Source of the DNA: Baffinella frigidus
Taxonomy: Eukaryota; Cryptophyceae; Cryptomonadales; Baffinellaceae
Reading direction: 5' to 3'
Length of the DNA stretch: 20,284 nucleotides
Assembly: GCA_026770585.1 (NCBI GenBank)
Contig: MU646773.1
Coordinates: 95,270-115,553 of the forward strand
The position numbers and the translations under genes are program-made. The notes under the pieces were generated by a model. The model was not told where the DNA came from, did not search any database, and was given only the letters and a program-made list of their open reading frames with translations. Below, one piece after another: positions 367 to 20,284 of this stretch (position 1 is the first letter of the stretch; each line of letters begins with the position of its first letter).

Positions 367-392
367 TAGGGGTACTTAAGGGATAACCGCAC

Positions 393-428
393 CTGGCTAG
401 TGCGCTTCCCAACAGCGTGACCCACCTC
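393..428 (-). pseudogene. Truncated copy of BIR gene exon 7 donor end
   Basis: ctgttgggaagcgcactagc+cag/gtgcgg repeats the end of exon 7 (ctgttgggaagcgcgacagt+cag/gtgcca), donor included. It could act as an alternative donor or be debris. Confidence 0.7.
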
Positions 429-506
429 ACGAAAGTTACTACACAAATGCCCACTTGTAAAAAAAAACGGTTTACAATAGGCCTCTCTAGGATTCTCGCG
501 TGGCAC

Positions 507-647
507 CTGACTGTCGCGCTTCCCAACAGCCTCTTCCCGCGTCCGCAGGCGGCTCTCCCTCTCCCTCAACCCCGCGTCTCTTTCCTCCAGCAAAGCTTCC
601 TTCGCGAGCGCCCCCACCTCCCGCTCCCCGATCCGCAATAGCGTCCC
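507..647 (-). CDS. BIR gene exon 7 (coiled coil), last exon recognised
   Basis: The exon is 141 bp (47 codons), phase 0 at both ends, with acceptor tcgacag and donor gtcag/gtgcca. It encodes an Arg/Glu-rich helix (RIGEREVGALAKEALLEERD, then GLRERESRLRTREEAVGK). Its acceptor is only six bases from the end of the palindromic element at 657-794. The donor end is repeated at 393-428. No stop codon or later exon was identified toward the window edge. Confidence 0.65.
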
Positions 648-3600
648 CTGTCGATATCATAGGAAAGCTTATTTAATATACAACATTTCGGTAGTGAAAT
701 TTACTACACATAGGGATCTTTACTAGTAATATTCAAGCAAACGTGTAGTAATTTTCAGTGAAATCCAATTTAAGTAAAATCAGTTTTCCTATGAGATTCA
801 GTCCCTTCACATGAAATATTCAATTTCGTAACGCACCCACAAAAAGGATTCCCGGTACAAAACCTGGGATTTTAAACGCTGAAAGTACGAAATGGCTCCA
901 ACGCCAAGCCAAATCCGAGATAGCATCTATTGGGTGACAGGACCAGATTGACACCACCGGCCCTTCATCTCATACCGGCGCGCGTCCCGAGGTAAAGCGT
1001 GAGAAGGAAAAATGAAAAATAGTTGTGAAAATATTTAATTGAAATTACGTAAAATAAATCAAGGCCCCCGAAGCGGGAGACAATCGCCTGCAGGACATCA
1101 CGCACCTAGGTTGTTTCCGAAACAGCCATCTGATGCCATCAGATAAGAAACCCGCTCTGGCGTACAGGGGTTGATCGCGAACACGGACACGCACCGCCCT
1201 AGGGTCCTACGGCAGGGCCAGTCCTAGGAGCATACGACCACCCTAGGAGCGATGCGTGTTTCTTAAGAAACCTGCTGCACCAGCGTCCAGCCTCGCGACT
1301 GATTGCCAGCCATAGCGGGATGTAGGGTGTAGGGTGTAGGGTGTAGGGTGTAGGGTGTAGGGTGTAGGGTGTAGGGTGTAGGGTGCAGGGTGTAGGGTGT
1401 AGGGCGTATCTCAGCGCTCTGGATTTCGGCGAATAAGCACACGCACCACCCTCTCCTACGGTATGGCCAGTCCTAGGAGCATACGACCACCCTAGGGGCG
1501 GCGCGTGTCCTAAATTTCTCGTAACCCCTGTACCTCAGCGCTCTGGATTTCGGCGCGGCGCCGGGCCTCGATGTCTGTCAGCTCCGCTAGTTCCGAGTCA
1601 AGAAGCCGCCTGCAAAGACACCGTGATGAGGTTTATTCGACACCCATACAATCGGGAAATCCTAGCTCTGTCCCACTTGGATCGAGGCACGCCATTATTT
1701 CGCCCCCCCCCGAAATTTCACACGTAAATTTTGACACCCTCCAATGAAATTCACCTCTGAAATTTCGGGTGGGGCGAAATAATGGCGAGCCCAAATTGAA
1801 CTGGGACATAGCTAGAAATCCAGGGCGTTACAGAGCGGAATTCATCCAAGCGCGCCCGCCCACCAAGGTTGGCTCAACGCGCAGGTGTTTTGGCGGGATG
1901 TGACTATGCTTAGGCTTCGTACACAGGCTTTGTTCTTCGGTTACGTTGTGACCTTCGTGGCAACTGACTCTGGGTGCAAAATCCGTTGAACCTACCAACC
2001 ATGCGTCAATCAACCAGGGAAACCTTTCAGTAGTCCGCAGTCGTGGGATTCAGGGTGATCAGCAGCGCTGAAAGAGAGCACCGAGAGACGGTGACGCGGC
2101 AAGGTTTTGCCCACACGGGGAGCCTCCAAGGAAATTTCGAACATACGTCTGTTCGAAATATCGGTCAATGAAATGTCTTTGTATCGAGAAATTCTCAAGT
2201 AGTACCTCGAAAATAAATGGATGGATCTGCGAAGGCCACTGTGCGGCGGCGTACATCACGCGCTCGCGCACACGCCGATTCGCGTCTGTGAGGGACTAAA
2301 CCCTTAACACCTAACCAGGACTTCACAACTCCCTCCCTTCAACACCAACCAGACCCGGACAGGGGCACACGCCAAGGTGCGGTGCTCAGGTCTAGCTCTG
2401 CCTGAGTAAAACGGGGCCCGTCATTAAATAAATTAGAGCAGGCAATCAAGTGCAAGAGTCCAGCTAAAATACATTTATGACGAGCCCAGTTTTAATAAGA
2501 GCTAGGAGGAGCGTTGGTGAGGTGGTGAGGTGGTGAGGTGGGATGTGGATGCCACCTCTGTTCAGCCTTGCCGGCATACTCAGCCTCGGCAGCTTTCATC
2601 TTGTGCTCTAGTGTCCCCTGCTCCTCTCTGCACAGACACGCACACCACGACTGTCAGAGCTATTTTGGCAGGGACTTGCTGTTCTCGATCCGCCGAATTG
2701 CCCAACTGGAAATTGAGAGCGCGGCCCACCGAGACAAAAGTCGAGAGTGGAACTTCTCAAAGCAAAAGTGGAACCTCTGTTAACTTAAAAAAGTAACAGC
2801 GGAAAACTCGAAGCGGTGCCTTTGTTGCCTCAACCTTCTTCCTCTTTTCTTCTTCGGTATTTCTGCCACGCCTGGAGACGAGTGATCCAACAGTCTATGC
2901 GCCTTACGACTGTTGTTACCTCAACCGGACAGGCTTCGTGCCGTGACGCAAACGAAACCAGGAAACTCTCCGATTAGTCAACAGTCGTGGGATGCTCAGA
3001 CACGCCTCCCTTGAGCCACGCCAGAGTCCAGAAAGGCGGTCGCCAAAAGTCACCCCCCCCTCCATTGCAGCTGTTTTCAAAAGTCATCCCCGTCAAATGG
3101 GACGGTCGGCAAGAGAGACGAACCCCCTCGAGCAATCTGGCGTGGAGACACCTGACTGCGCTAGACGAAAGGCTCCACGACCCTCCTCCAAAGTCTAGCT
3201 CTGCCTCACTCGGACTATTCTCAAGTCGACACGCTGGGTTTGCGATACACATCCTTCAACTTTGGAGCGGAAAAGATCCTGGGCTCACCATATTGGTGAG
3301 CCCAAACAGACTGAGAGAGACAGAAAGTTGACCATCCAGCGGAAGTTGCTGATTTCGACGGATCGGAGGGAGTTGATAGGACAAGGGTCCCTAGGCCTGA
3401 GTTTCTCGTAGGAACCTTGCGGCCTACCGTAGTCAATAACGTAGGCGTAACTAACCTCAATTCGAGCCGGTACCCTATTGGAGTGGGCTTGCCACCGTGC
3501 AGCGGCGAGGGCGTCAAGGGCAGCACGCTGCGCCCCTTCCGCGTCCTCGATCTTCCGCAGCGCCTCCTCGTGCCTGCCCCGAGAATCGGTTAGGATAACC

Positions 3601-5990
3601 GTAGGTCGGTTAGGATAACCGTGGGAACAACTAGTAAATGACCTATTCACACTGTTAGATGACCCCCCTTGCGTGTCTGCGATCTTCCGCAGCGCCTCCT
3701 CGTTCCTGCCCCACCATCATTAGATACGGCGAGACGTGTTGGTGGTCATAAAAGTCAATCTCATGCATGGGTCATTTAATACTATTAAGTTACTGTTACT
3801 ATGAAGTTACTATTAAGTTACTATGACATAATCGATGGATGAGAGAGATTTTTTTATCACTATCAACACGGCTTCCTACCCCCGTATGAATGAAATTTAG
3901 TGCATACCCCTGACACCAAGAAATCCAGGGTGTTACAGAGCGGAATCCAGCTGAGCGCTACCGCGCGAGCCACTAGGGCGAAGTTCCCTCCCCTTCACGC
4001 CGCCATGATCTACAACCCACGCTTTCCCCATCACGCCTTCTCCCTGCACAGCCACTCGAGGCTAGAGATGGAAATATTTTAAAAGTGGGTGTGTTGGATT
4101 TGTACCAGTCACGGGCGGGTTTGGTCACGTAGCTGCGGGGTATCCCGCAGCTACGTGACCAAACCAGGATATGTGTGTCCACCCGACGCCATAAATTTGA
4201 CTATTTTAAAACCGGGATATTTTTACAAGTGGGGCGGTATGTAGTAATTTTCACATATATCCGGTTTTGGTCACGTAGCTGCACATTCGTTTCCGCGCTG
4301 CACATTCGAAGGGAAGCGTGGCGAACATGCCAGCAGGCATCTTCGTTGGAAACATGCCCGACTCCCACAACCACTTTCCCTGCAGGTTCTCTACCACCTA
4401 ACGTAAGTCCAACAACGTATGCTAACTACCGCAATCCAGGAAGCCCCCCCCCCCCACCCCCCCCAAAACCCTATACACTATAAACCTTAACCTCTGGAGA
4501 GCAATTCCCCAGTTTGAGGTGTACACCGTTTGTAACATATTACACGCCGAAAACCCAATTGAAGCTGCTACGGGGTCCTTTAAGTCCTTTAGTAGGGTGG
4601 CGGATGCGCGTGCAACATCGTATGCGGACTACCTGCAATCCAGCCCCCCCCCGCCACAAAAAAAAAGTCCAACCCCCTAAAAGCTTGAGAGAAACGGACC
4701 GTTCGGCCTCCTGGCGGAGGGCTTCGAGGCGCGGGAGCAGCTCGGCCTCGCGAGCCTCCAACTTTCGCACGCGCGCCCCCCCTTCCTCTTCCCGCGCGCG
4801 CCCTTCCTCCTGTCGCGCACGCCCCTCATCGTCCAGCCGCGCACTCCTGCCGAAGCGAGTTGTACTTTTAATTGTAAATTTACTTGTACGGTTGTAAAGT
4901 TATTTGTGCGCTTGTACCGTTAGTTGTACTGCTTTACCGTTGTACAGTTAGCTGTACAGTTGTACAGGTAGTTGTAGAGTTGTAGAGTTGTAGAGTTGTA
5001 GAGTTGTAGAGTTGTAGAGTTGTAGAGTTAGGCGGAACACACGCATGAGTGCACGCGCCTGTGCGCAGGGGGATGTGACGCGCCGACCCTGCAGAGGCCT
5101 AGCTCTGCCCGAGTAAATCTGGGTTCTCGAAATGAGGAAACCGGAAGTCGATTCTCCTGTTTTGCGGTGCATATCCGTCAACTTCTGGCGAGGAAACGAT
5201 CAGTCAACCCGACTGAGGCAGAGCCAGACAGTCTCGACGCAACGCAACGTTGCGGAGGGCGGGTAGCAAGTGAAATGCTTTGTCGATGGGCCACCCCACG
5301 ATTTTATATCAGTGGTCGCAGGACATCGGTACCATCCTCGCACACCTCCGCCAAATCCCACCGCCGAATCTGGTGCATTTGGGAGGTCGGTTAGAGAGTG
5401 TAAAGTGGCATGGATGGTGTTTAGGTTTTAGGATTCAAGTTTTAGGGTTTTATAGTTAGGTTTACATTTTAGGGGTTAGGATTGAGTTTAGAGTTTATGG
5501 TTTATGGTTGATGATTTATGGTTGATGATGTATGGTTTATGGTCTACACTTCATGGCTTTAGTTGATGGTTTCTGGATTAGGGTTTAGGGTTAAGGGTTT
5601 AGGCCACCTGGCGGCCGCCTGCTCCTCCCCAGCCTTCACCGCCCCGGCGCGCGCCCGCACCTTGTCGGCAATCCGCGCGAGCCGTGTGGCCTGCCGGGGC
5701 GACATGTTTATTCCATCGAAAGCAAACATTTTTTTTGGCGGATCTTTGCTACGGCAAGGCGTGGTGTTAGCCTATCTTTGGGTTGCATGGGAGGAAGAGG
5801 CGGATGTAGGCGTCAGTTGTTGGTTGCATGCGGTGGGGGGGACGCGGGGAGGAGGGGGTGGGGGGGGGAAGCGGGGGGGGGGGCGACCTGCTCCTGTGCA
5901 CGCTCCGAGACACGCGACAGCCCAGTGTCGGCAGCCAGCTCGAAGGTGCGGTGCGCCGCCTCCAGCTTCCTCCGCCCTTCCATCACGGCC

Positions 5991-6070
<80 letters not shown>

Positions 6071-6933: not shown

Positions 6934-7351
6934 GTGTGTCTGCTCACCGAATGTGGCTGGGCTGGGTGAGGGCGGCGCGGTGCCTGGCGCGTGATACGTT
7001 CAGGGAGCTGCGCTCACTCCAACACCCCTCGGCCTCACCGCCCAGAAATGAGTCACCTCGTCACCGCCCGAATTCGTCAAATCGGGGATTTTTTCGACGA
7101 CAGAGAAGATCGGTTTCGGTCTTTTCGCTTGGCGGCCTATTGAAACCCCAAATTCGGGAATGCTGCGGACGAGGGGTCCGTTTTCCGGCCAGTGGAGGAT
7201 CGCGAGTCGGGGGGTGCAGATGAGGGGCGCCGCGGCTCGCACCGCGGCGGTGCTCCTGTGCTTTTCCCTCTTGGGCACGGGGGCAGGTTCATTGGACCCG
7301 CCCCCGCCCGCTGGGGCGCTCTGCGGGCTGGTGCCTGCGGTGCTGGTCCAT
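6668..7351. repeat. Segmental duplication, parent copy
   Basis: This block (BIR codons, spacer and leader exon) matches 8867-9839 at high identity over its whole length, once two insertions in the other copy are set aside. Both coding parts are open here. Confidence 0.9.
6934..7219. promoter_or_regulatory. Bidirectional promoter spacer between the two head-to-head genes
   Basis: The 286 bp between the two chosen start codons must hold both 5' ends. I see no convincing TATA box. The segment is preserved almost intact in the duplicate at 9432-9707, apart from small deletions and substitutions. It also carries, at 6977-7023, an inverted copy of the exon 2 end of the plus gene. Confidence 0.55.
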
Positions 7352-7614
7352 CGAAGCACGGCGCTTCGCCTGCGCGGGGCGGGTCCGGCTAGGACAACGG
7401 AGGAAAATGAAGGTCGGCACCCGCTGGTGGAGGACTGGACCTCGGAGGAGGAGGCTTCCAGCATTGACAAGCCGACGTTCGACGTGACGAATCCCATGGA
7501 TGCCATGTACATGAGGAGGTTCGGGATGCTGGACGATCAACCGGATCGCGGCGAAGATCCTTGGGACAGCGAGGCGGAGCGCGTCCTGGGAGAGCTTCGC
7601 GGCGAGCTTGACAG
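7220..7614 (+). CDS. Exon 1: signal-peptide-like leader and acidic N-terminal region
   Basis: I chose the ATG at 7220 over the in-frame ATG at 7160 because it puts a short Arg-containing n-region directly before the hydrophobic run AAVLLCFSLLGTGAG. The leader exon start is also kept in the duplicate at 9708. The exon has 131 codons and ends gacag/gtgcgc (phase 2). After the LRLRGAG motif the sequence becomes acidic (VEDWTSEEEASSIDKPTFDV, DQPDRGEDPWDSEAERVLGE). Confidence 0.75.
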
Positions 7615-10600: not shown

Positions 10601-12902
10601 GGGTTCCTCCCGTTTTGGTTTGCAGCGTGCGTGCGTGATTTGACGTGTGTGTGATGAACAAACGGTGGTGTGCGCGCGAGGTAAAATTCCGGCCGTGGAA
10701 AGGACGAGCAGTCGCGTTTCACCGAGGAGCGCACACTAGTCCAGTAACACCAATCGAAACGTCGCGTTTTGAAATTGCCACGTGTGATCTGGCGTGGGAT
10801 GAACACACCATTTTGTTGCGCGGGCGCGGCGGCTCACGCGCCCGAGTAAACCTCAGACCCTAAATCCCAAACCCTGAACCCTAAACCCTGAACCCTGGGC
10901 AGCTGACGACGGACATGGCGGGATGCTGGGCGGAATGGGACGCCGCGTGGAACAGTTGCGTTTCACCGGGAAGCGCACACTCATCCAGTACCGCGAAACG
11001 AAACGTCGCGTTCTGAAATTGCCACGTGTGGTCTGGCGCTGAGCAGCTGACGACAGACATGGCGGGATGCTGGGCGGAATGGGACGCTGCGGCTGGCCGC
11101 AAGGGTGGACCCTGCTCGTACCGCACCAAGGTACCACACCCTCTCCTCTCCGGTCTAGGGTTCCTTCGGGTTGGTGTGTGTTTGCGTATGGCTTTTGGTT
11201 CGAGGTTTAGCGTAGGAACTCGAATTTGGGGGTTAGGTTTGGGGACCTGCTCCTACCGCACCAAGGTATCCATAACCCACCTTCTCCTCTCCCGCCGATG
11301 TTTGCGTAGGGTTCAGGGCCGAGTGGGACGCTGCGGCGAGCCGCAAGGGTGGACCCTGCTCCTACCGCACCAAGGTACGGGTTTAGGTTTTATCGTTTAG
11401 TGTTTGGGGTGTGGGGTGTGGGGTGTGGGGTGTGGAGTGTGGGGTGTGGGGTGTGGGGTGTGGGGTGTAGGGTGTGGGGTGTGGGGTGTGGAGTGTGTGG
11501 TGTGGGGTGTGGGGTGTGTGGTGTGTGGGGTGTGGGGTGTGGGGTGTGGGGTGTGGGGTGTGGGGTGTGGGGTGTGGGGTTCGGAGATTAGAGCCCGGCC
11601 TCCCGGCTAGCCTCAAGGGCGGACAGCCCTGCTCCTACCGTTCCGAAGGTACCCCTAACCCACCCTCTCTTCTCCCGCCGAAGTGTGCGTAGGGTTGAGG
11701 GCCGAGTGGGACGCTGCGCCGAGCCGCACGGGCGGGTCCTGCTCCTACCGCACCAAGGTACATTAGGGTGTAAGGTGTAGGGTGTAGGGTGTAGGGTTGA
11801 GGGTTGATGGTTGAGGGTTGATGGTTGATGGTTGATGGTTGATGGTCGAGGTGTTAGGGTTCTGGGTTATCACACCCTCTTCAGGGTCTAGGGTTCAGGT
11901 TTCAGGGTTCAGGGCATCCTCCCTTCTCAAGTTTTCCACTCAAGCCAGCCCCTGCCCCGCCGGCGTTCCCAATTTTGAAACGCCGCGAGTACTAACCCCA
12001 GCCCCTAACCCTAAACCCCACACCCTAAACCGTAGGTCGACCGGGCGCTCCCCTCCTACCTCCGCGCACTCGAGCCTGGCGCAATGGACATCCGAAATCG
12101 GCGCAACCGCTAACCCCTGCACACCAAAACCCGAGCCAGCGCCTGCCCCGTCGGCGTTCCCAATTCGGATACGCCACGAGTGCTAACCGCAGCCCCTAAC
12201 CGTAAACCCCACACCGTAAACCTTAGGTCGACCGGGCGCTGCCCTCCTATCTACGTCCGCTGGAGCTGGATGTCATGGACATCAAAAATCGGCGGGATCG
12301 GTTCCACGCGAAGCAAATGCGGCAAGCTGTGTATGACTATGGCGCTACCGAGGAGGGTGGGGGGGCGCTGCTTGGACAGCTCAAGGCCGAGGTCTCTCTC
12401 CCGTGTGCTTGTTCAGTGTGCTCAACCTTTCCCGCTGTGCGGCTACCAACCGAATCATAGGGAGAGAGATGTGGCGTGATATACGGTGGTGAGCGTGGCA
12501 GGGGAAGAAACCCTGGCCCCTAACCCCTAACCCCTGAACCCTAACGCGCGTTGGGCAGATGGCAGCGGGGCGGGTGACGGGGGGCGACGACCCAGGGAAG
12601 TCCGAGGTCCGCGCGATGATTGACCAGGTGTGCCTTCGTTGCTTTGGTGCTTTGTGTTACCCTCGCATCGCATCACAACCTATCTCACCTTGGAGAGATA
12701 CGAACACCTCACCGTGGAGACCGTCGTGAAAGCGATTCGTGCGTGAGATATGGCGTGGCAAGGTGCGCGACATCGGTTGTTAGGTGCTTTACGTTCCATG
12801 AAATCATCTAATGTCCCTTTCTACTGTTGATATGTGTTTACTGTGCAGGTTGGGGAGGAGGAGCTGCACGCTGTGCTCGACCGCGCGCTTTACAACGCCG
12901 AG

Positions 12903-12955
<53 letters not shown>

Positions 12956-12964
12956 GTCTCGCTC

Positions 12965-13010
<46 letters not shown>

Positions 13011-15362
13011 GCTCGCTCTCGCTCTCGCTCGCGCGCGCGCGCTCTCTCTCTCTCACTCGCTCGCTCGCTCGCTCTCTCTCGCGCGCGCTCGCTCTCTCTC
13101 TCTCTCGCTCTTTGACCGCGCGCTGTACAACGCCGAGGCGACCCCCCTCTTTTCCGCCCGAATCCTATACCCGAAGGTGCTCACCCGAGACCTGAAACCC
13201 TGATGAGCTGCATGCCGTGCTCGACCACACGCTGTAAAAAGCCGAGCTCGCCCCCCTCTCCCGCGCTTCTGGCCCAGCTCGCGCGTTTTGATGTAGAGTG
13301 TTGGCTCGTGTGTTTCTCGCCGTCACCAGTCGAATCAATCACGCCATCTTTCTCTCTCTCTCCCTCTGGTTCAGTTGTTGTACAGCAGTTTCTCGTCTCT
13401 TTGTTTCATCCGGTTTACAGTAGCGCGTCGTCTGGTTTCGCCAGTTGCTTTACATTAACGTCTTGTTCCGACATATATCAGGGTAAAAATAGGTCAGTGC
13501 GGGCTACAGGTGTGGGGTTTTCTGTAGTCCCGCTCTGCTGTACCATTTCAACAAAGCAACTATCTCTCATTATTTATCTGAAATTGTGCCATTTCGCATG
13601 TGCACGGGCGGCGCGAGACGCTCCCTCTCCCGGACTGGGTGTACAAAATGCCCAAGAAAACCGAGTCGTTCAGTTGCTTTACAACACCATCGTATGGCTT
13701 GCGCGATCACGCTCGGCTGGATTCCGCTCTTCAACACCCAGGATTTCGTGGGTTGATAGGTATCCGATAAATGTCTTTCGCCTTGCAGGTGCATGGGCGA
13801 CGCGAGACACTGCCTCTCCCGGACTGGGTGTACAAACCCCCCAAGAAGACCGAGTCGTGGGCCAGCAAACGCGCACTCGCCATGGGTGCGTTTGGGGGTT
13901 CTTTTTTGTTTGTTTGTGGGTTGGTGTTTGGTGTTTGGGGTTTAGGGATGAGGTGCAATCGCCATGAGTGCCACCCGTCAACACCCTCCGACGCCCCGCC
14001 ACCAGCCATCCCAAGTGGCTCACATAATGCCCTGGAAGGCCTTCGATTTTACCTTGGATCGGGGTCGGATCCGACCCCGATGTCAATGTAAATCGAAAAT
14101 GCCCCCGATCACTATTTGCGCCACCTTCACGGGCTAGTGGCGCCGGGTTGGTGATTGGTGTTTGTGGTTTAGGGATGAGGTGCAGTCGCCATGGGTGCCG
14201 CCCTGTCCTCCCGGCGCCCCTCTCGTGCTCTCATCCTTCGCAAATGTCGTGACCCTTAATTCAAGTACCCCATGTACTTACACCACTGTTCTGGTTTCAT
14301 CGTGAGTGTCTTTCGGTCGTACCGAAAGGGTGTCAGAAGCGCACCGGGCCAACATGCGTCCTTTGGGAGGGCTGATGGGGCCGAGGCCACCCGATCTGAA
14401 ACGCGCGCTAGCCCCGTGGAATGTCTGGGCACGTTAAGTTCCACCTCGTCGTACAAATCTCAAAATTCACCCGTTATGCCTGATCAAATCAACTAAACCT
14501 GTTTCCATATGCAATCTGAGAAGCGCGCTACCCCTCCCGCAGCGGCCTTCTGCTTCCCCTTCGCTCCATTCCTTCTTAATCGATACCCGGTATGCCCGCA
14601 GCGGGGTGTGTTCCACCGCGTACCGTAGTACACATCTTGAAATTCCTCGTAGTACACATCTTGAAACACATCTTGAAACCTCGTAGTACACATCTTGAAC
14701 TTCACCCGGTATGCCCCATCAAATCAACTAAACCTCTTTCCATATGCGATCTGAGAACCTCTGTTTCCATATCAGATCTGTCTGTTTCCATATGATGTAT
14801 GAGTCTTTTTCCATATGAGATATGAGTCTGTTTCCATATGAGATATGAGTCTGTTTCCATATGAGATATGAGTCTGTTTCCATATGAGATATGAGTCTGT
14901 TTCCATATGATATACGAGTCTGTTTCCATACGATATCTGTTTCCACATGAGATCTGAGCGCTACCCCTCCCGCGGCGGACGATGCAGTGGACCCGGGTCC
15001 TCGCGCGCGCTCTCTCTCTCTCCCGCAAGATAACAAACGGTGTTGCAAATCAAACCTGATTCCATATGCGATCCAAAAAGCGCGCTATCTGAGATTACCG
15101 CTACGGGCATGTTGTGTTCCGCGTATGGTATTGCGGAACGCCATTCACTGGTCTTCAGATTGACCCGGAATGCCCGCAGCGGATGATGCGTTGGACCCGA
15201 CGCTCTCCGGATGCGAGAAGGTCCCGCCCCCAACCCTCCTCCCTCAACCCTCACCCCTGAACCCTGAACCCTGAACCCTGAACCCTGAACCCTGAACCCT
15301 CAACCCTCAACTCTCAACCCTCAACCCTGAACCCGCAACCCTCACCCCCCAACCCTCAACCT

Positions 15363-15399
<37 letters not shown>

Positions 15400-18300
15400 G
15401 TCCCTAAACCCTCAACCCTGAACCCCGGAAAGGGGGGGCGACCTCGGCGTTGTACAGCGCGCAATCGAGCTCTGCCTCACTCGGGTTGACCGACTCTCTT
15501 GAAGTTGAGATGCACGGCGCGCATCTCAACTCCCAACGTCATCCAGGGAAACATATTTTTCGTTCATTTGATGGCAATGGAAATTACTACACACTCCGTT
15601 CTTACTAGTAATATTAAACCATTCGTGTAGTAATTTTCATTGGAATGAAATGGAAGAAAAATAGGTTCCCCCGGATAAAACGTGCGTCGGGTGAGAAGCT
15701 CCTCCTCCCAGAGACCTGCGCATCTCCGTGTGTTCGCCTTGTCAGCAACGGTTTTGCTGACGGTTCCCCGGTCGAATGCCACATGACGTGTGAATGGCAC
15801 TTGGCGTGTAAATGGACAAATGACGTGTGAATGCCAGCCGACTCTTGTTGTGTCTCTCCGTGTGGTCTCGCCTTGTCAGCACCGGGTTTGCTGACGGTTC
15901 CCGGTTGAATGCCGCATGGCGTGTGAATGCCAAATGACGTTCGTTGTGTCTCTCCGTGTGTTCGCCTTGTCAGCATCGGTTTGCTGACGGCTCTTTCGAA
16001 CGAGCAGTCCAGTTGAATGATGACAAACGACGTTCAGTGTGTCTCTGCAAAGGTGGACTCCGCTTGAATGCCACATGACTTTCCTTCTAAAAAATGACTT
16101 TCGTTGTGAAAAATGACTTTCGTTGTAAAATTGACTTTCGGTGTGCGAAGGTGGACAAGGCGTGGGAGGCGCTGGAACGGGCGGACGTCTCGCTTCAGGA
16201 TGCTCTCCAGGAGGCCAGGGATGACCAAGCGAGGGTGCGTCCCGCCGAGAGTGGATACCTGCTACTGCAAAGCCACAGAGGAAGTCTCAAAATTCTTGGA
16301 CACGACACTAAAATTACTTGTAGGTTACCTTTTGACGAATTTTGGTCACGTCCTTGGGGTGAAAATTGCCTTTTGAGGAGAAAATGGCTCCAAAGTATGC
16401 GACACCAGAGTGTCGCGAACTTTTTGAAACTTCCCCTGGGGCTTTCCAGTAGTGCCTGTCGCGTGCTCTGATCGGATCAGAGAGAGCGAGAGTCTACCTC
16501 TGCCCCACTTCATTTCGTCTCATGCGGAAAAATGTTTAGCTGCCGTTGTTAGTTTTAAAGGAGGATGCCCAGTACAAATTAACTGTCCATCTACGGCTTA
16601 TTTTCTTGAACGATGAGACGAAATTAAGTGGGACAGAGCTGGAGAGTAGCGCTGGACTGGAAGGCCAGGGATAACCAAGCGCGGGTGCGTTTAAATCACC
16701 TTTTTGCTATCTTAGGGGTAGCCTTTTTGCTATGGTATCGCTATTTCGAAGCTAAGATATCGAATTTCACCCTCGAGATAGCACAAACCGGTGTTTTATC
16801 CCTTGAGTGGCGAGAAAACGCATACGCCCTACCGTAGGGCCCTAGGAACTGCCTAGGGCTTCGACGGGCGAATATTCGGCCGTCCGGCACTTGAAGGATA
16901 TTGAATCTGATTCCGCAGTAGACGGCTGGCTGTCTCGTCCGACCAGAGAGAGAGAGTAGCTGGCTGTCTCGTCCCAACTGAGAATGAATAGCTGTCACGA
17001 CTCAGAAAGAATATCTGACTGCCACGCCCTCAATCCTAAACCCGAAACCCGAAACACCAGGACGGGGCGCCCCCTGAAGATGCGACCATGGCGCAACTCG
17101 AGTAGTTTAATTTCTAACCCCGAAGCCTAATCCTAAACCCGAAACCCAATTCTAACCTCGAAACCCGATTCTAATCCCGAAATCTGAATCCGCAGGGAGG
17201 GGGCGCCTCCGGATGATAAGAGGGAGGTGTGGACTATGAAGCAACTCAAGGAGAAATAATTGATGTTACATGTTAGAATAAGGAGAAAGAATTGTTGTCA
17301 CATGTTAGAATAGCCAGCTGTCACCTCCTCAATCCTAAACCCTTGGGGATTCCCGAAAATCCAGGGCGGGGCGCCTCCGGATGATACGAGGGAGGTGTGG
17401 ACCATGAAGCAACTCAAGGAGTGGGCGGCAAAGGGGGACCGGGGGGAGGTTGACCCTGAGGAGAGGGTAACCCCCCTGGCCTCCCGCGCCTTGACTCCCA
17501 ACCCCCGAACCCACACCTCGCACGCGCGCTTATCCGCAAAGTCGGGTTGCTAGCGCGGCTGGTGTTTGCGGTTCAGGGTTTCTCATGGAGTGGGCGGCCC
17601 CGTTTCCCCTTGTCTATTCAAGGAGTGGGCGGCCAAGGGGTATCGGGGGGAGGTTGGACCCGATGAGGGGGTGCGTACCCGGAAAGACACCCAGGACTGA
17701 ACACTTTTGAAACTAGGTTTTGGTGCACCGTTAGACGGGCGTGCTCTGAGGGCTTTGGGGCTAGGTTCGAGGGTTGGGTGTAGAGGGTTGAGGATGGAGG
17801 GTTGAGGGGTTAGGATGATTGCCACGCCAGGGCACTCGAAACATCCACTTTTGACATCTTTCAAGGAAGATCTCTTGAGTACTCAAGTCAACCACGTAGA
17901 ATCTGACGTGGACAAGGCGTCGGTATCCCTCGACCATTCTGGCGTGGTGCGGCGGGGCGGTTGTAGGAAACAGGGGACATTTTAGTCAACACCGCACCTT
18001 GCGTTTTCACGGCGGATATTGCCCCCCCCCCCTACCCCTTGGAGGTGGCTCACACAGTGCTCTGGGGCATTTTCGATTTACCTTGGATCGGGGTCAAAAG
18101 TGACCCCGGTCCAAGGTGAAATCGAAGACCTTCCAGGGCAGTATTTGAGCCAGTTGGGAGGGCTGGTGGTCTGGCGCAACTCAAAGAGTGGGTGGTGCAG
18201 GGGGGACGCTGGGGAAGTTGGCCCCAATCCAAGTCCGCTGTTTTGAAAGGGAGTTCTTGAATAGCCCACAAATGAGTAATTCCTACAACCCTACGGTAGG

Positions 18301-19967
18301 CATTCCGTAGGGACATAGGGTTGTTCAAAGTGTGACCAACCCTACCACTTAGCAGCGATCGAGGACCTTTTCATCTTGAGTTCAAGGTGGAATTCCGGTT
18401 AGGTTAGAGGGCAATGGACACGAGTCTAGTACAAATAGTTTAGATGGACTGCATCCGTTAAGTCCCTGGTGGCTGCTAAGTGGAAGAAGGTTAGCGGAGC
18501 AATTCGTAATTACTACCACGAAAATAAATGGACCGGTCTACGAATCGCACTGTTTGGTCACAGCACCGACGCCTCGCTGGACACGCGGCGTGTTAATGGG
18601 GTAACGGACTGCATATGGGGTAGTCAGGCATATGGCATTGACTATGGTAGGCCGTAGGCCCCCTAGGACCTGGTTTTTCGTAGGAGCCCCCTAGACCCCT
18701 ATGGCTTACCGTAGTCAAACGCGTAGGCCTAACTACCCCATTTTCAGTCCGTTATCCTATGAGTGTGCGCTAACGCTCTCCTGTCGCGCAGTTCACCGGC
18801 TGGATCAAAAACGACAAATACGAAGACGACTCGGATCAAATCATCATCGAGGGCTATCAGGTGCGGGCCTCCCCACGCCAGATTCTTGGAAGGGGTCGCC
18901 AAAAGTCAATTCCCCGGAAGGAATAAGGGGGAATTGTTTACTTTTGGGATAGTTGAACGCCAGGTGCGGGCCTTCCTCCCAAAGTCGTGCTGGATCTCTT
19001 GAAACGCGATCTTATCCGGGGAAACCTATTTTTCTTTCATTTGATGGCAATGAAAATTTCTACACAATTCGTTCTTACTAGTAATATTAAGTCATTCCTG
19101 TAGTAATTTTCATTTGAATGAAATGAAAGAAAAATAGGGTTCCCCGGATAAGATCCTGAGCGCAAGCAGCTCACGTCCTCAGTCTTTCCCTTCGATTCCT
19201 GTACGGCCAGCTTCGGTGGGCCCGCCTCAGAGCGAGCCCCGTAAAGATTGCCCAATTTCTTTCTGAGTTTTCCCGCTTCCTGGGTTATAGTGTTCAGAGC
19301 TGTACACTAGAATCATCGTGGGGCCGGGCAACCAGTAGGCCGCTCTCGCTCTCTCGCCCCCCCCCCCCAAGAACTCCTTTGATCAAAGGGAACACTCTAC
19401 TTATCAGGCAATGCCTCCCTTCTCTCAGGAGGTTCCGGCGAGGTTTAGGGTCGGGACTGTAAGGTTTGGGGTCGGGACTGTAAGGTTTGGGGTCGGGACT
19501 GTAAGGACCCGGCGGCTCCCACCTCTGGGAGTGGCTATCCCGCGCACCGTCAGAGTGCGAGACTGACACCACTTGCCTGGGTGGACCGCTCTCGCTCTTC
19601 GTAACCCCCACCGCACGACATGACGAAACAACGCAGCCATCCGTACTCGGGCGCTGATCCACACTCGGTCGCTCACGCGGACCAACACCCCCCCCCCTCC
19701 CCTTGGAGCAGGAAGTACCTCCCGGGCCGGGTGGACCCCACCTCTGGGAGTTGCCATCGCGCGTGAGGGTGCGAGACTTGACTGGGTGGCTTTCGCTCTG
19801 CACAACCCCCACCTTACCCCACCTTTCCTCCCTTTTCGCAGGAAGTGCCCCCCGGACCCGGTGGACCACACCTCTGGGAGTGGCCATCGCGCGTGGGGGT
19901 ACGTGACTTGGAGAACCGGACGCGGGGGAAGGACTGGAACAAGAAGTTCGCAGGCGCCATTGATAGG
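7220..19967 (+). CDS. Leader-bearing unknown protein, 13-exon chain, 3' partial
   Basis: Thirteen exons on one strand join without frame conflict into at least 505 residues. The N terminus (MRGAAARTAAVLLCFSLLG) looks like a signal peptide. An Arg/Ser/Thr-rich region with STALRLRGAG follows, resembling the second part of bipartite pre-sequences in algae with complex plastids; that targeting is inference. The rest is acidic to mixed charge, with short Trp- and Cys-containing segments (AGCWAEWDAA, GGPCSYRTK, DWVYKPPKK, FTGWIKNDKYEDD, HLWEWPSRV). I do not recognise a family, transmembrane segment or catalytic motif in it. The chain shares its promoter spacer with the BIR gene. Introns range from about 170 to 2000 bp and are mostly repeats, MITEs and damaged copies of adjacent exons. 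After exon 13 the last donor (agg/gtgatc) leads into a CCCTCAA-type repeat typical of these introns; alternatively, translation runs on to TAG at 19983-19985. Confidence 0.65.
7714..7921. mobile_element. Family D palindromic element, copy 1 (intron 1)
   Basis: The ends taccaccagcaacccgt and acgggttgctggtggta are long inverted repeats that continue into gcagcttat / taaaagctgc. The terminal TA may be a TA target duplication of the Tc1/mariner type, but this is not certain. It makes up more than half of the 370-bp intron 1. Confidence 0.82.
7985..8081 (+). CDS. Exon 2 (possible GC donor)
   Basis: The acceptor tgtgcgcag is followed by a base that completes Arg with exon 1, then YGQELGVLVNDSEAERED and ALERAQLPERITRQ. 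No GT donor fits; cgccag/gcaccg would be a GC-AG intron in phase 0, matching exon 3. The last 40 bases of the exon and the donor also occur inverted at 6977-7023 and 9475-9521, so the exon may have been truncated and repaired there. The exon lies between two inverted copies of one MITE family. Confidence 0.55.
8098..8308. mobile_element. Family D palindromic element, copy 2, inverted
   Basis: The right end aacgggttgctggtggta is well kept and the left end (taccgcaagcaaaatcg) is degenerate. The interior is the reverse complement of copy 1 (gctgacgggagatacgg, ccctacggtagg). It lies just past exon 2. Confidence 0.8.
8309..8705. other. Intron 2 of the plus gene, no supported gene
   Basis: No exon-like frame with splice sites was seen. 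It holds the hairpin at 8534-8574 and a tract of family A-like sequence after it. Confidence 0.5.
8534..8574. repeat. Hairpin of the tggtcacgt family
   Basis: tggtcacgtg and cacgtgacca flank an inner gaccgc-aaa-gcggt stem. It is followed by gaaaattactacaca, a family A core motif. Confidence 0.7.
8706..8844. mobile_element. Family C MITE (139 bp)
   Basis: It starts ctagctctgtctcg and ends gtggcggagccag. The flanks gattt and gaatt are an imperfect 5-bp duplication. Its interior (tctgctccaaagttga, cttgagaatagtcc) matches the reverse complement of 3195-3323. Confidence 0.82.
8986..9138. mobile_element. Small inverted-repeat element inside the BIR pseudogene (153 bp)
   Basis: The left end catccgggaacatgttt pairs with the right end aaacacgtccctggatca. 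The 5-bp duplication gcctt is at 8981-8985 and 9139-9143. The parent copy has a single gcctt at this point, so the insertion boundaries are exact. Confidence 0.9.
9198..9337. mobile_element. Family A MITE, copy 1 (140 bp)
   Basis: Terminal inverted repeats start ttatccggggaaac and end gtttccccggataa, and nearly the whole element is palindromic around cttactagtaatatt-like core sequence. The target duplication gggt flanks it (9194-9197 and 9338-9341). The empty site is visible in the parent duplication at about 6838. Confidence 0.93.
9708..9839 (+). pseudogene. Leader-exon pseudogene
   Basis: This copies the first ~130 bp of exon 1 (MRGAAARTAAVLLCLSLLG). One inserted base within the run after CCCGCCCGC shifts the frame relative to the parent, and homology stops before the LRLRG motif. 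Confidence 0.85.
9840..10090. repeat. Interstitial telomere-like repeat before exon 3
   Basis: CCCTAAA-type units mixed with ccccaaa and cccgtgcat variants. C-rich on the sense strand and ends at the exon 3 acceptor (cctcaaaacag). Confidence 0.92.
10095..10226 (+). CDS. Exon 3
   Basis: The exon is 132 bp, phase 0 at both ends, with acceptor tcaaaacag and donor gatcag/gtacag. It encodes 44 residues: EWTLEEALVDMREHDLVLSD, then an acidic SGEEDKDF and VAREMPTFTPDQ. Its flanks are C-rich telomere-like repeat upstream and GT-rich minisatellite immediately downstream, so the coding stretch stands out by composition. Confidence 0.75.
10227..10502. repeat. GT/GGGTGT minisatellite opening intron 3
   Basis: Units gtgtggtgtgtgg, gtagggtgt and ggggtgtg follow the donor immediately. 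Rich in G-triplets. The intron's C-rich end at 10856-10899 is complementary in kind. Confidence 0.95.
10690..11040. repeat. Tandem duplication of intron 3 end plus exon 4 start
   Basis: gcgtttcaccgaggagcgca... cgtcgcgttttgaaattgcc at 10713-10796 recurs at 10949-11036 (gcgtttcaccgggaagcgca... cgtcgcgttctgaaattgcc). A copy of the exon 4 start (10903-10947) lies between. Confidence 0.88.
10903..10947 (+). pseudogene. Truncated exon 4 copy with intact acceptor
   Basis: cctgggcag then ctgacgacggacatggcggg repeats the first half of exon 4, and is cut where the duplicated intron segment resumes. Confidence 0.85.
11047..11130 (+). CDS. Exon 4
   Basis: The exon is 84 bp, phase 0 at both ends, with acceptor tgagcag and donor accaag/gtacca. 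It encodes LTTDMAGCWAEWDAAAGRKG then GPCSYRTK. It is the only complete member of an array of at least six exon-like copies between 10903 and 11757; the others are truncated or enter in the wrong phase. Confidence 0.7.
11243..11265 (+). pseudogene. Exon 4 donor-end copy
   Basis: cctgctcctaccgcaccaag/gtatcc repeats the last 20 bases of exon 4 with a working-looking donor. Confidence 0.85.
11317..11374 (+). pseudogene. Exon 4 copy, acceptor and donor present, wrong phase
   Basis: ggttcag then gccgagtgggacgctgcggc through ctaccgcaccaag/gtacgg. It encodes AEWDAAASRKGGPCSYRTK but enters with one spare base, so inclusion after exon 4 would shift the frame. Confidence 0.82.
11404..11582. repeat. (ggggtgtg)n minisatellite in intron 4
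   Basis: About 22 units of 8 bp with minor variants (gagtgtgtgg). Strong G-quadruplex potential on the transcribed sense strand. Confidence 0.96.
11605..11757 (+). pseudogene. Two further exon 4 copies
   Basis: 11605-11648 ends ctgctcctaccgttccgaag/gtaccc, and 11699-11757 reads gccgagtgggacgctgcgcc to accaag/gtacat. The intron piece between exon copies (taacccaccctctcttctcc + cgccga) is duplicated as well, from 11273. Confidence 0.82.
11944..12324. repeat. 191-bp tandem duplication covering the exon 5 acceptor
   Basis: cctgccccgccggcgttccc to ctaaaccgtag/gtcgac (from 11950) recurs 191 bases later as cctgccccgtcggcgttccc to gtaaaccttag/gtcgac. The second copy continues as the real exon 5. 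Confidence 0.88.
12036..12110 (+). pseudogene. Truncated exon 5 copy
   Basis: It encodes VDRALPSYLRALEPGAMDIR then NRRNR and stops at TAA within the following repeat. The acceptor ccgtag is intact. Confidence 0.85.
12227..12391 (+). CDS. Exon 5
   Basis: The exon is 165 bp (55 codons), phase 0 at both ends, with acceptor aaaccttag and donor gccgag/gtctct. It encodes VDRALPSYLRPLELDVMDIK, then NRRDRFHAKQMRQAVYDYGA and TEEGGGALLGQLKAE, a mostly helical, basic-then-acidic segment. The acceptor half is the second copy of a 191-bp tandem duplication. Confidence 0.72.
12559..12627 (+). CDS. Exon 6
   Basis: The exon is 69 bp (23 codons), phase 0 at both ends, with acceptor gttgggcag and donor gaccag/gtgtgc. 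It encodes MAAGRVTGGDDPGKSEVRAM then IDQ. It is short, but phase and composition agree with neighbouring exons, and no duplicate was seen. Confidence 0.6.
12849..12902 (+). CDS. Exon 7
   Basis: The exon is 54 bp (18 codons), phase 0 at both ends, with acceptor actgtgcag and donor gccgag/gtcctc. It encodes VGEEELHAVLDRALYNAE. The donor opens directly into a long CT microsatellite. Damaged copies lie at 13114-13137 and 13202-13246, and an inverted copy of its donor end at 15441-15462. Confidence 0.7.
12903..13112. repeat. CT / CTGT / CTCG microsatellite opening intron 7
   Basis: Blocks of (tc)n, (tgtc)n and (gctc)n with cgcgcg islands run from directly after the donor to the next exon 7 copy. 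Confidence 0.98.
13114..13137 (+). pseudogene. Exon 7 donor-end copy, donor GT changed to GC
   Basis: gaccgcgcgctgtacaacgc+cgag repeats the end of exon 7; the next bases are gcgacc rather than gtcctc. Confidence 0.85.
13202..13246 (+). pseudogene. Second exon 7 copy, stop codon and lost donor
   Basis: gatgagctgcatgccgtgct reads DELHAVLDHTL, then TAA; the donor GT is replaced by CT. Confidence 0.85.
13247..13599. other. Intron 7, no supported gene
   Basis: A pyrimidine-rich stretch and mixed sequence without exon-like signals. The open frame across this region joins intron to exon copies and is not credible as a gene. Confidence 0.5.
13600..13668 (+). pseudogene. Exon 8 copy with lost acceptor
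   Basis: It encodes VHGRRETLPLPDWVYKMPKK then TES, nearly identical to exon 8, but the preceding AG is AT (cgcat/gtgcac) and homology ends before the donor. Confidence 0.88.
13789..13885 (+). CDS. Exon 8
   Basis: The exon is 97 bp, with acceptor cgccttgcag and donor catgg/gtgcgt (phase 1). It encodes 32 residues: VHGRRETLPLPDWVYKPPKK then TESWASKRALAM. A close copy at 13600-13668 has lost its acceptor (gcag to gcat). Amino-acid conservation between the copies supports past coding constraint. Confidence 0.75.
13920..14210. repeat. Duplicated intron 8 start around gcaatcgccatg
   Basis: ggttggtgtttggtgtttgg... gggatgaggtgcaatcgccatg (13919-13966) recurs as ggttggtgattggtgtttgt... gggatgaggtgcagtcgccatg (14146-14192). 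cgccatgggtgc also echoes the exon 8 donor. Confidence 0.75.
14015..14124. mobile_element. Family E palindromic element, copy 1
   Basis: Arms gtggctcacataatgccc and gcgccac pair across ccttggatcggggtcgga / tccgaccccgatgtcaatg. Homologous to 18045-18152. No clear target duplication. Confidence 0.7.
14211..14620. other. Intron 8, no supported gene
   Basis: Mixed sequence. aagcgcgctacccctcccgc at 14521-14540 recurs in part at 14957 and 15078, all near tttccatatg motifs. No exon was seen. Confidence 0.5.
14625..14700. repeat. Tandem gtagtacacatcttgaa units
   Basis: Three units of gtagtacacatcttgaa separated by short spacers. Confidence 0.9.
14735..14960. repeat. 23-bp tandem array, tgtttccatatgagatatgagtc
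   Basis: About eight units with small changes, most perfect between 14818 and 14904, in intron 8. Confidence 0.95.
14975..14994 (+). pseudogene. Exon 9 copy with mutated acceptor
   Basis: cggacgatgcagtggacccg corresponds to exon 9's cggatgatgcgttggacccg; the preceding cgcag has become cgcgg. Confidence 0.7.
15180..15220 (+). CDS. Exon 9 (microexon)
   Basis: The exon is 41 bp, with acceptor tgcccgcag and donor cgagaag/gtcccg. Its first two bases complete an Ala codon with the phase-1 end of exon 8, and it then encodes DDALDPTLSGCEK and ends in phase 0, as exon 10 needs. That it alone reconciles exons 8 and 10 is the main support. A copy with a mutated acceptor lies at 14975-14994. Confidence 0.6.
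15236..15425. repeat. CCCTGAA / CCCTCAA heptamer array in intron 9
   Basis: About 25 seven-base units starting shortly after the exon 9 donor. Confidence 0.95.
15441..15462 (-). pseudogene. Inverted exon 7 donor-end copy
   Basis: On the minus strand it reads gcgcgctgtacaacgccgag/gt, exon 7's end with its donor, about 2.5 kb from the parent and in opposite orientation. Confidence 0.8.
15539..15678. mobile_element. Family A MITE, copy 2 (140 bp)
   Basis: Same length and inverted structure as the copy at 9198, with left end tcatccagggaaac and right end ccccggataa. The target duplication aacg is at 15535-15538 and 15679-15682. It lies in intron 9. Confidence 0.92.
15720..16020. repeat. Three-unit tandem repeat with internal hairpin
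   Basis: Units of about 100-130 bp start at tctccgtgtg (15723, 15855, 15951). Each contains cttgtcagca...tgctgacgg, a hairpin, and most contain gaatgcc + catgacgtgtg. Confidence 0.88.
16044..16150. repeat. Short duplications leading into exon 10
   Basis: gcaaaggtggac (16048-16059) resembles the exon 10 acceptor gcgaag/gtggac. Three copies of tgactttcgttgt then run to the real acceptor. Confidence 0.7.
16151..16234 (+). CDS. Exon 10 (helical)
   Basis: The exon is 84 bp (28 codons), phase 0 at both ends, with acceptor gtgcgaag and donor gcgagg/gtgcgt. It encodes VDKAWEALERADVSLQDALQ then EARDDQAR, a likely amphipathic helix. The acceptor lacks the usual pyrimidine before AG. Fragments of both exon ends are repeated nearby (about 16044-16058 and 16661-16690). 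Confidence 0.68.
16235..16488. other. Intron 10 start, no supported gene
   Basis: Contains ttttggtcacgtcc (tggtcacgt family motif) and a short hairpin gcgacaccagagtgtcgc at 16399-16416. No exon was seen. Confidence 0.5.
16494..16642. mobile_element. Family C MITE (149 bp)
   Basis: Left ctacctctgccccactt pairs with right aagtgggacagagctgg, continuing through atttcgtctcat. The 5-bp duplication agagt is at 16489-16493 and 16643-16647. It lies in intron 10. Confidence 0.9.
16661..16690 (+). pseudogene. Exon 10 donor-end copy
   Basis: ggccagggataaccaagcgc+gg/gtgcgt repeats the last 22 bases of exon 10 and its donor, just right of the MITE at 16494-16642. Confidence 0.82.
16797..16877. mobile_element. 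Dispersed repeat with cctaggacctgcctaggg core, copy 2
   Basis: Counterpart of 281-366, in intron 10. The preceding 16700-16790 holds gctatctta / aagatagc-like motifs also seen at 1-180. Confidence 0.6.
17061..17105 (+). pseudogene. Exon 11 copy 1, stop codon
   Basis: Acceptor caccag then DGAPPEDATMAQLE and TAG. Confidence 0.82.
17196..17259 (+). pseudogene. Exon 11 copy 2, stop codon and altered phase
   Basis: It encodes EGAPPDDKREVWTMKQLKEK then TAA. One base more than exon 11 follows the acceptor, so it would enter out of frame. Confidence 0.85.
17365..17466 (+). CDS. Exon 11
   Basis: The exon is 102 bp (34 codons), phase 0 at both ends, with acceptor aaatccag and donor gagagg/gtaacc. 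It encodes GGAPPDDTREVWTMKQLKEW then AAKGDRGEVDPEER. Of five related copies between 17061 and 18230 this is the only one open from acceptor to donor. Confidence 0.7.
17583..17672 (+). pseudogene. Exon 11 donor-half copies
   Basis: ggagtgggcggcc occurs at 17588, and a longer copy from 17617 reads KEWAAKGYRGEVGPDEG with donor-like ggg/gtgcgt. Confidence 0.8.
17673..18040. other. Intron 11, no supported gene
   Basis: A short telomere-like stretch (17763-17817, gggttgggtgtagagggttg type) and unique sequence. No exon was seen. Confidence 0.5.
18045..18152. mobile_element. Family E palindromic element, copy 2
   Basis: It contains a strong hairpin, cgatttaccttggatcgggg to ccccggtccaaggtgaaatc, with outer arms gtggctcac / gagccag. 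It lies in intron 11 just before a damaged exon 11 copy. Confidence 0.7.
18174..18230 (+). pseudogene. Distant exon 11 copy
   Basis: gcgcaactcaaagagtgggt reads AQLKEWVVQGGRWGSWPQS, matching MKQLKEWAAKGDRGEV in spacing but decayed. Confidence 0.6.
18231..18599. other. Intron 11, weak microexon candidate
   Basis: Palindrome acaaccctacggtagg / gtagggacatagggttgt at 18282-18325. The stretch tccctggtggctgctaagtg+gaagaag/gttagc (18462-18488, SLVAAKWKK) has AG and GT in phase 0 but is too short to accept. Confidence 0.4.
18600..18756. mobile_element. Family F palindromic element
   Basis: Arms of about 55 bp: gtaacggactgcatatgggg at the left and tagtcaaacgcgtaggccta... ccgttatcc at the right, meeting near ccccctagg. 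A related partial copy lies at 3377-3478. No target duplication was identified. Confidence 0.72.
18792..18860 (+). CDS. Exon 12
   Basis: The exon is 69 bp (23 codons), phase 0 at both ends, with acceptor ctgtcgcgcag and donor tatcag/gtgcgg. It encodes FTGWIKNDKYEDDSDQIIIE then GYQ. A 12-bp copy of its donor (caggtgcgggcc) recurs at 18961-18972. Confidence 0.65.
18953..18982 (+). pseudogene. Exon 12 donor copy
   Basis: gccaggtgcgggccttcc echoes exon 12's tatcag/gtgcgggcctcc. Confidence 0.6.
19012..19151. mobile_element. Family A MITE, copy 3 (140 bp)
   Basis: Ends are ttatccgggg and ccccggataa, with target duplication gatc at 19008-19011 and 19152-19155. It lies in intron 12. The 4-bp target duplication in all three copies defines the family. 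Confidence 0.93.
19429..19563 (+). pseudogene. Exon 13 partial copies
   Basis: tctcag/gaggttccggcg at 19429 and ggacccggcggctcccacct to cgagac (19506-19563) are split by three copies of aaggtttggggtcgggactgt-like sequence, so this copy is interrupted by a tandem repeat. Confidence 0.75.
19712..19790 (+). pseudogene. Exon 13 copy with intact acceptor
   Basis: gagcag then EVPPGPGGPHLWELPSRVRV and RDLTGW. It lacks the second half of exon 13 and has no donor. Confidence 0.85.
19842..19967 (+). CDS. Exon 13, last exon recognised
   Basis: The exon is 126 bp (42 codons), with acceptor ccttttcgcag and donor gatagg/gtgatc. It encodes EVPPGPGGPHLWEWPSRVGV, RDLENRTRGKDWNKK and FAGAIDR. Three shorter copies precede it (19429, 19506, 19712), the last with an intact acceptor. 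If the donor is not used, the protein ends VIPQP at TAG 19983-19985. Confidence 0.7.
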
Positions 19968-20204
19968 GTGATCCCTCAACCCTAGACCCTAATCCCTAAA
20001 CCTAAGTGACCCCTGAACCCTAAGCCTGCGATCCCTCAAGCCTAAACCGAAGTGATCCCTAAATCCTAAACCTAAGTGGTCCTCACACCCTAAACCCTAA
20101 ACCCTGAATCTAAACCTGAACCTGAACCTGAACCCTAAACCCTAAAACATGAACCATGAACCATAAACCCTGAACCCTGAACCCCAAACCCTTAACCATA
20201 CACC

Positions 20205-20284
<80 letters not shown>
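19968..20284. repeat. CCCTAAA / CCCTGAA / CCCTCAA repeat to window end
   Basis: Degenerate heptamers from the exon 13 donor onward, becoming perfect (ccctcaa)n over the last ~80 bases. Likely the start of intron 13; a subtelomere is less likely because several introns here contain the same repeats. Confidence 0.9.

Follow-up and report, generated by a model that had tools for sequence, protein, structure and literature searches.

Two neighbouring genes in the window

The window, by which we mean the whole 20,284-nt stretch of DNA analysed here, is part of the nuclear genome of Baffinella frigidus, a cryptophyte and single-celled Arctic alga. It contains two neighbouring genes, one on the minus strand that encodes a BIR domain (Pfam BIR, 5.8e-20) and one of unknown function on the plus strand, whose protein had no Pfam match. 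A search of the window at Rfam gathering thresholds returned no RNA genes, and there was no tRNA. The gene models, with plus-gene exons numbered E1 to E13 and BIR exons B1 to B7, are as follows.

7220..19967, plus strand: plus gene, 13 exons, modelled from the open frame, GT-AG borders and the match to P0014
7220-7614, 7985-8009, 10095-10226, 11047-11130, 12227-12391, plus strand: E1 to E5
12559-12627, 12849-12902, 13789-13885, 15180-15220, plus strand: E6 to E9
16151-16234, 17365-17466, 18792-18860, 19842-19967, plus strand: E10 to E13
507..6933, minus strand: BIR gene, seven exons; the gene may continue
6933-5888, 5690-5608, 4846-4700, 3573-3496, minus strand: B1 to B4
2627-2556, 1609-1534, 647-507, minus strand: B5 to B7

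All 12 introns of the plus gene are GT-AG, and the exons form a single open frame of 481 codons. The public B. frigidus protein P0014 (T484DRAFT_1823120) matches this gene with 91% identity over 91% of the query and agrees with E3, E5–E12 and most of E1 and E4. It continues beyond the end of E2, is without E13 and counts a truncated copy upstream of E4 (10903-10947) as coding, so either its model is in error or splicing sometimes includes the copy. Since P0014 disagrees at these three places, the present model is the sole basis for the end of E2, E4 and E13. The 25-nt E2, where P0014 reads on, restores GT-AG borders and frame; a longer E2 was rejected, as its open frame is not followed by a GT and the stretch directly after E2 (8024-8088) repeats part of the promoter (source 6977-7042) in inverted orientation.

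In the BIR gene, the phases of exons 2–7 are consistent (checked by hand), and the exons past the BIR domain appear, by eye, charged and coiled-coil-like. A transcript-derived relative, P0015 (674 aa), aligns over the entire spliced model, and its protein contains no trace of the copies of B4, B6 and B7 listed below. BIR exon 1 carries a poly-C run of nearly 80 bases (5992-6081) that codes for glycines and disrupts the reading frame; the length of this run may be an assembly error. The genome of strain CCMP2293 comprises 534.5 Mb (6.1 times Guillardia theta) with 41.1% repeats, 53.9% GC and a BUSCO score of 72.3%, and was assembled with AllPathsLG from Illumina libraries (PMC9756366). We infer that this is the assembly that holds the window.

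Partial exon copies and their position

To find copies, every exon plus 25 nt was compared with the rest of the array-masked window, using 40 dinucleotide-preserving shuffles per exon as the null and the null maximum as the threshold; BIR exon 1 was searched down to 6090, which excluded the poly-C run. A direct copy above the null maximum was present for 13 of the 20 exons (E1, E4, E5, E7–E11, E13, B1, B4, B6 and B7), and none for E2, E3, E6, E12, B2, B3 and B5 in the masked window. Chance resemblance of exons and copies was ruled out by the shuffles. A preliminary description of this DNA had named 14 exons with truncated copies; assuming identical exon numbering, 13 of these are above the null, the exception being E12, whose "copy" is only a short word below it. 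The copies are listed below, where acceptor-type and donor-type refer to the splice site that the fragment carries.

8865..9839: E1/B1 copy of 6666-7351, containing the 5′ parts of BIR exon 1 and plus exon 1 and their shared promoter
389..416, minus strand: end of B7, donor-type
1177..1431, minus strand: B6, second copy of a 124-bp unit, with the B6 3′ end at 1431-1410 and a heptamer array at 1408-1321
1259-1177, minus strand: intron arm of the B6 copy, matching 1508-1429
3665..3712, minus strand: start of B4, acceptor-type
10706..10947, plus strand: upstream tandem copy of E4, with intron arm, acceptor and the first 45 nt of the exon
11246-11292, 11316-11378, 11604-11675, 11699-11761, plus strand: end of E4, donor-type, four nested duplications
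11943..12103, plus strand: upstream copy of the start of E5 with intron arm, 191-bp period
13114-13138, 13202-13249, plus strand: E7, donor-type, both donors lost, one copy carrying a stop
13596..13669, plus strand: E8, acceptor-type, acceptor AG changed to AT
14585-14604, 14969-14995, plus strand: E9, acceptor-type
16662..16690, plus strand: E10, donor-type
17048-17085, 17193-17253, plus strand: E11, acceptor-type
17618-17672 (donor-type) and 18176-18224 (interior piece), plus strand: E11
19700-19780 (acceptor-type) and 19505-19544 (interior piece), plus strand: E13

The copies of E1 and B1 belong to a single segment of about 0.7 kb, so the events are fewer than the exons. This segment copy lies in plus-gene intron 2, not adjacent to its source, and is interrupted by two inserts absent from the original, one of which (9198-9337) is palindromic and has a 4-bp target duplication. 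Within the same intron, 9457-9709 repeats the shared two-way promoter (6959-7219) at 96% identity and could be an internal promoter. An inverted copy of the end of E7, with its GT intact, lies in a later intron (15440-15470).

When a tandemly duplicated unit spans one exon border, an acceptor copy is left upstream of the full exon or a donor copy downstream of it. All 19 above-null copies with a splice boundary (9 acceptor, 10 donor, from 11 exons) obey this rule of position, although, as several share an exon, they do not represent 19 independent events. Of two sub-threshold matches, one obeys the rule (14182-14198) and one breaks it (17908-17923). A tandem duplication should also leave a second arm, so that the sequence where the copy breaks off resembles the opposite end of the unit. 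Such an arm was found at p=0.003, the floor of the test, in 9 of 22 copies (seven outside simple repeats, two inside) and was absent from the other 13; for the E4 copy at 11316, the arm may come from another nested duplication. The clearest arms are those of the upstream E4 copy, in which a heptamer array is inserted beside the acceptor, and of the copies of E5 (191-bp period), E13 and B6. At B6, a copy of the 124-bp unit comes after it, and a heptamer array lies at the donor of that copy. In most donor-type copies the homology does not run past the splice site, and the duplications, often nested, have periods mostly of 114–450 bp. No copy spans a whole exon, where 6.6 of 17 units would be expected to do so (p=6e-5, taking periods as unit lengths and events as independent). 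The rule of position and the second arms agree with the original proposal of short local duplications across exon-intron borders as the source of the fragments, and for many copies this probable origin is well supported by the sequence.

We favor, with a probability of about two-thirds, the reading that the intronic exon fragments are the surplus members of short tandem duplications and that exon borders undergo duplication more often than other parts of the gene. The duplicated unit would straddle one border, reaching from within an exon into the adjacent intron, with periods mostly in the range given above and often nested, and after its duplication the full exon would be accompanied by a truncated copy that has only one splice site. 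The truncated copy would then be intron, free to drift and to collect frameshifts, stops and inserts, and the intron would be longer by one unit per duplication. Selection would purge whole-exon duplications and tolerate a truncated copy with an orphan splice site. The duplications themselves may arise through fill-in and end-joining of staggered breaks, with exon borders breaking or duplicating more than the remainder of the gene; such fragility would also explain the arrays that abut splice sites, described below. Counting against this reading are the 13 copies without a second arm, the end of homology at the splice site in most donor-type copies, the excess of silent differences and the equal per-base coverage of exons and non-exons discussed later, the inverted exon copy, the non-adjacent segment copy and the base of a single locus.

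One alternative is templated insertion or capture by mobile elements, in which the repair of breaks would have placed fragments of nearby exons in the introns. The inverted copies of E7 and of the promoter piece, the separation of the 0.7-kb segment from its source and the frequency of MITE-like repeats would fit such a process. However, neither the rule of position nor the second arms would be expected from random pasting, and we give this explanation very little weight.

Border preference and tandem arrays

Are exon borders duplicated preferentially, or are duplications there merely easier to see? Local direct duplicates cover a similar fraction of the bases in exons (548/2,996, 0.183) and in non-exonic sequence (2,808/14,964, 0.188). 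After two of the 37 local direct pairs were dropped as parts of palindromic repeats (4116/4262 and 7892/8279), 18 of the remaining 35 touch an exon. It is possible that tandem duplication is uniform, with no hot spot, that the conserved member keeps exon pairs recognisable for longer, and that whole-exon duplications are purged; the equal coverage and the missing whole-exon copies are both consistent with this. To allow for the longer-lasting traces of exon copies and for the lack of whole-exon duplicates, uniform duplication was simulated with drift, indels and large insertions, and with rejection of whole-exon duplicates, in five settings of 200 runs each. The simulation is simple and its parameters were chosen by us, and the tests were run at 17/35, on the cautious side of the observed 18/35.

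Under these conditions uniform duplication fell short in three respects. The simulated exon-touching share was 0.25–0.28, against 18/35 (P 0.000–0.050, tested at 17/35; pilot simulations gave 0.16–0.28), the simulated ratio of exon to non-exon coverage was 0.37–0.40 against 0.97 (P at most 0.005), and 4.2–5.7 exons were touched against 10 (P 0.000–0.045). Thus, exon-touching duplicates exceed the simulated ascertainment about two-fold, and because coverage per base is equal, the preference for borders is visible only against a simulation with chosen parameters.

The tandem arrays also gather at splice sites, and this clustering is independent of exon conservation. Among the 26 merged arrays from Tandem Repeats Finder, three were dropped for touching exons. 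Seven of the 23 non-exonic arrays that were kept are no more than 8 nt from a real splice site, where random placement predicts 0.52 (P=0.0003), and 11 lie within 25 nt, where 1.5 are expected, in both genes. A preference for donors among these (8 of 11) was not significant. The arrays concerned, and those with GGGTTTA-like units, are as follows.

5460-5601, 5835-5883, 10234-10501, 12906-13111, 13890-13942, 15227-15425, 16075-16144: arrays within 8 nt of real splice sites
10234..10501: 7-bp array after exon 3, beginning 7 nt past the real donor
1321-1408, 5460-5601, 9875-10078, 10234-10501, 10847-10897, 11764-11861, 15227-15425, 19987-20284: GGGTTTA-like arrays

Of ten arrays of the 7-bp type (the last heptamer array being merged with a neighbouring row of period 24), three are 7 nt or less from real sites (P=0.0013), or six when copied sites are counted. 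Their units are degenerate GGGTTTA-like variants in either strand orientation, which we take to resemble plant-type telomere repeats, and they adjoin the splice sites of exons and exon copies far above random placement.

The simulations and these arrays both speak for exon borders as favoured places of duplication. On the evidence of this one locus, a preference for exon borders is moderately supported, these borders may be true duplication hot spots, and we consider uniform duplication unlikely. A more tentative extension, to which we would assign a low probability, is that exon-intron borders in Baffinella are fragile and that a telomere-linked repair by fill-in and end-joining leaves duplications there at every scale, from the telomere-like 7-bp arrays at splice sites to part-exon units of 0.1–0.45 kb. 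If so, intron length would be a record of the repair of breaks at exon edges, which would help to explain a genome of 534 Mb, about six times that of Guillardia theta.

Divergence of the copies and growth of introns

The copies have decayed. Splice changes are present in copies of E8 (AG to AT), E9 (AG to GG), E7 (GT to CT and GC) and B6 (GT to AT). All five kinds of change cited in the preliminary description, which held that many copies had lost a key splice base, were therefore found, but the copied dinucleotide is intact in 14 of the 19 above-null copies (15 of 20 with one sub-threshold E8 copy). With drift of 6–10%, intact dinucleotides are not significantly fewer than predicted (p=0.08 and 0.33 at two drift rates). 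The surplus splice site thus need not be destroyed, and its loss, proposed as a step in intron growth, is at about the level expected from drift. The statement that the copies keep reading frame is only partly correct: across 25 exon-copy alignments, flanks included, 4 of 19 gap events are multiples of three, and in the 25 alignments three single differences create stops.

Codon positions 1 and 2 differ between exon and copy at 51 of 855 sites; doubled, this is 12%, close to the divergence of the intron arms, which are 88% identical for E5, 87% for E4 and 87.5% for B6. Third positions differ at 80 of 427 sites, which is above the divergence of alignable intron arms (about 12–13%). Compared with copies neutral from birth, the excess of third-position differences over positions 1 and 2 has p=0.007 (p=0.011 with one copy per exon), and dN/dS between exon and copy is 0.21 (bootstrap 0.15–0.29). 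Decay of CpG was considered as the source of this excess and rejected, as the excess is about three-fold both inside and outside CpG context. Of the third-position differences, 36 put G or C in the copy opposite A or T in the exon, and 26 show the reverse. Either the silent sites of exons evolve faster than introns, as they may at this locus, or the copies were coding during part of their existence, or one member of the pair derives from a diverged allele.

The last of these possibilities would mean that one member of each pair derives from a diverged haplotype or homologue, through unequal exchange or through the joining of haplotypes during short-read assembly. The dN/dS of 0.21 and the coding-like third positions of the copies would be accounted for in this way, as would the frequent end of homology at the splice site, and the genome is an Illumina AllPathsLG draft with a BUSCO score of 72.3% (PMC9756366). 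However, the copies hold frameshifts, stops and an element insertion with a target duplication, the second arms and the rule of position also count against it, and the window contains no N. In addition, a search that scored the best 8000 candidates, of limited length, turned up no other homologue of the plus gene, which makes an allelic source less likely. We regard this explanation as quite improbable, less so than templated insertion and more so than uniform duplication.

If the fragments are the surplus members of tandem duplications, how much of the introns do they account for? Of the 17,198 non-exonic bases of the window, MITE-like repeats (palindromic, inverted or dispersed) account for 3,105, tandem arrays for 2,772, local direct duplicates for 2,380 (both members counted) and the remainder of the 0.7-kb segment copy for 767, leaving 8,174 unclassified; 1,279 (7.4%) are exon-derived. 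Introns were proposed to grow mainly by local border duplications, but local direct duplicates, at 2,380 of 17,198 bases, are one filler among several. As the sequence reads, local duplications appear to have lengthened existing introns and are one contributor of several. Intron creation by duplication of an AGGT-type site, the other process put forward, left no clear sign in the 18 introns: in 36 comparisons there was one marginal 14-nt match (p=0.025).

Several known systems resemble parts of this pattern. In the potato RdRp gene, a tandem duplication spans an intron-exon boundary, and, as in the window, it is a short duplication running from intron into exon that inherits the acceptor and its tract (Ma, Lan and Niu 2016, PMC4974935). 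In potato, a single event made a new intron, documented by RNA and DNA reads, whereas the window has many events that seemingly only enlarged introns and are known from assembled sequence. The Rogers/Hellsten AGGT model of intron gain by exonic tandem duplication, in the form outlined in PMC4974935, likewise places tandem duplications in genes, and AG/GT occurs on both sides of 5 of the 18 window introns, but the predicted likeness of intron ends to the flanking exons was not clearly found in these 18. For the repair pathway, which we propose by analogy, CST-guided fill-in by Pol alpha-primase followed by end-joining would be a candidate, since it yields small tandem duplications as a product of break repair; that work concerns mammalian cells and mostly smaller units (PMC8355091). 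With introners (PMC9860276), the window shares introns rich in mobile elements in a protist. Introners would be a single repeat family that forms whole introns across many genes; the palindromic elements of the window sit within introns, one of them within an exon copy, and by eye no repeat in the window fills an intron from one splice site to the other.

Among the matches listed in a search of the open-licence literature, no paper described this pattern by title or abstract, and what may be new here is the standing of exon borders as true hot spots. Intron growth is hard to see because its traces decay. In this single 20-kb window, some twenty partial exon copies follow a simple rule of position, and arrays abut splice sites. 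If other genes are alike, they would allow direct measurement of the rate of the process, its unit size and its preference for borders, and mutational hot spots could be separated from selection that merely preserves traces.

Finally, we note the other repeats of these introns. A 17-base word from an element occurred at 21 loci in viral_contigs, and blastn of the window against a file of these loci, which may contain fewer than the 21, gave no match; a 33-base word found nothing in viral_contigs or genome_contigs. Further intronic palindromic or inverted-repeat elements lie at 1663-1814, 7714-7922, 8097-8308, 13999-14140, 18029-18169 and 18594-18762. A palindromic family of about 140 bp with the ends TTATCCGGGG is present at 9198-9337, 15534-15680 and 19012-19151, and two of its copies are flanked by 4-bp target duplications, GGGT and GATC.
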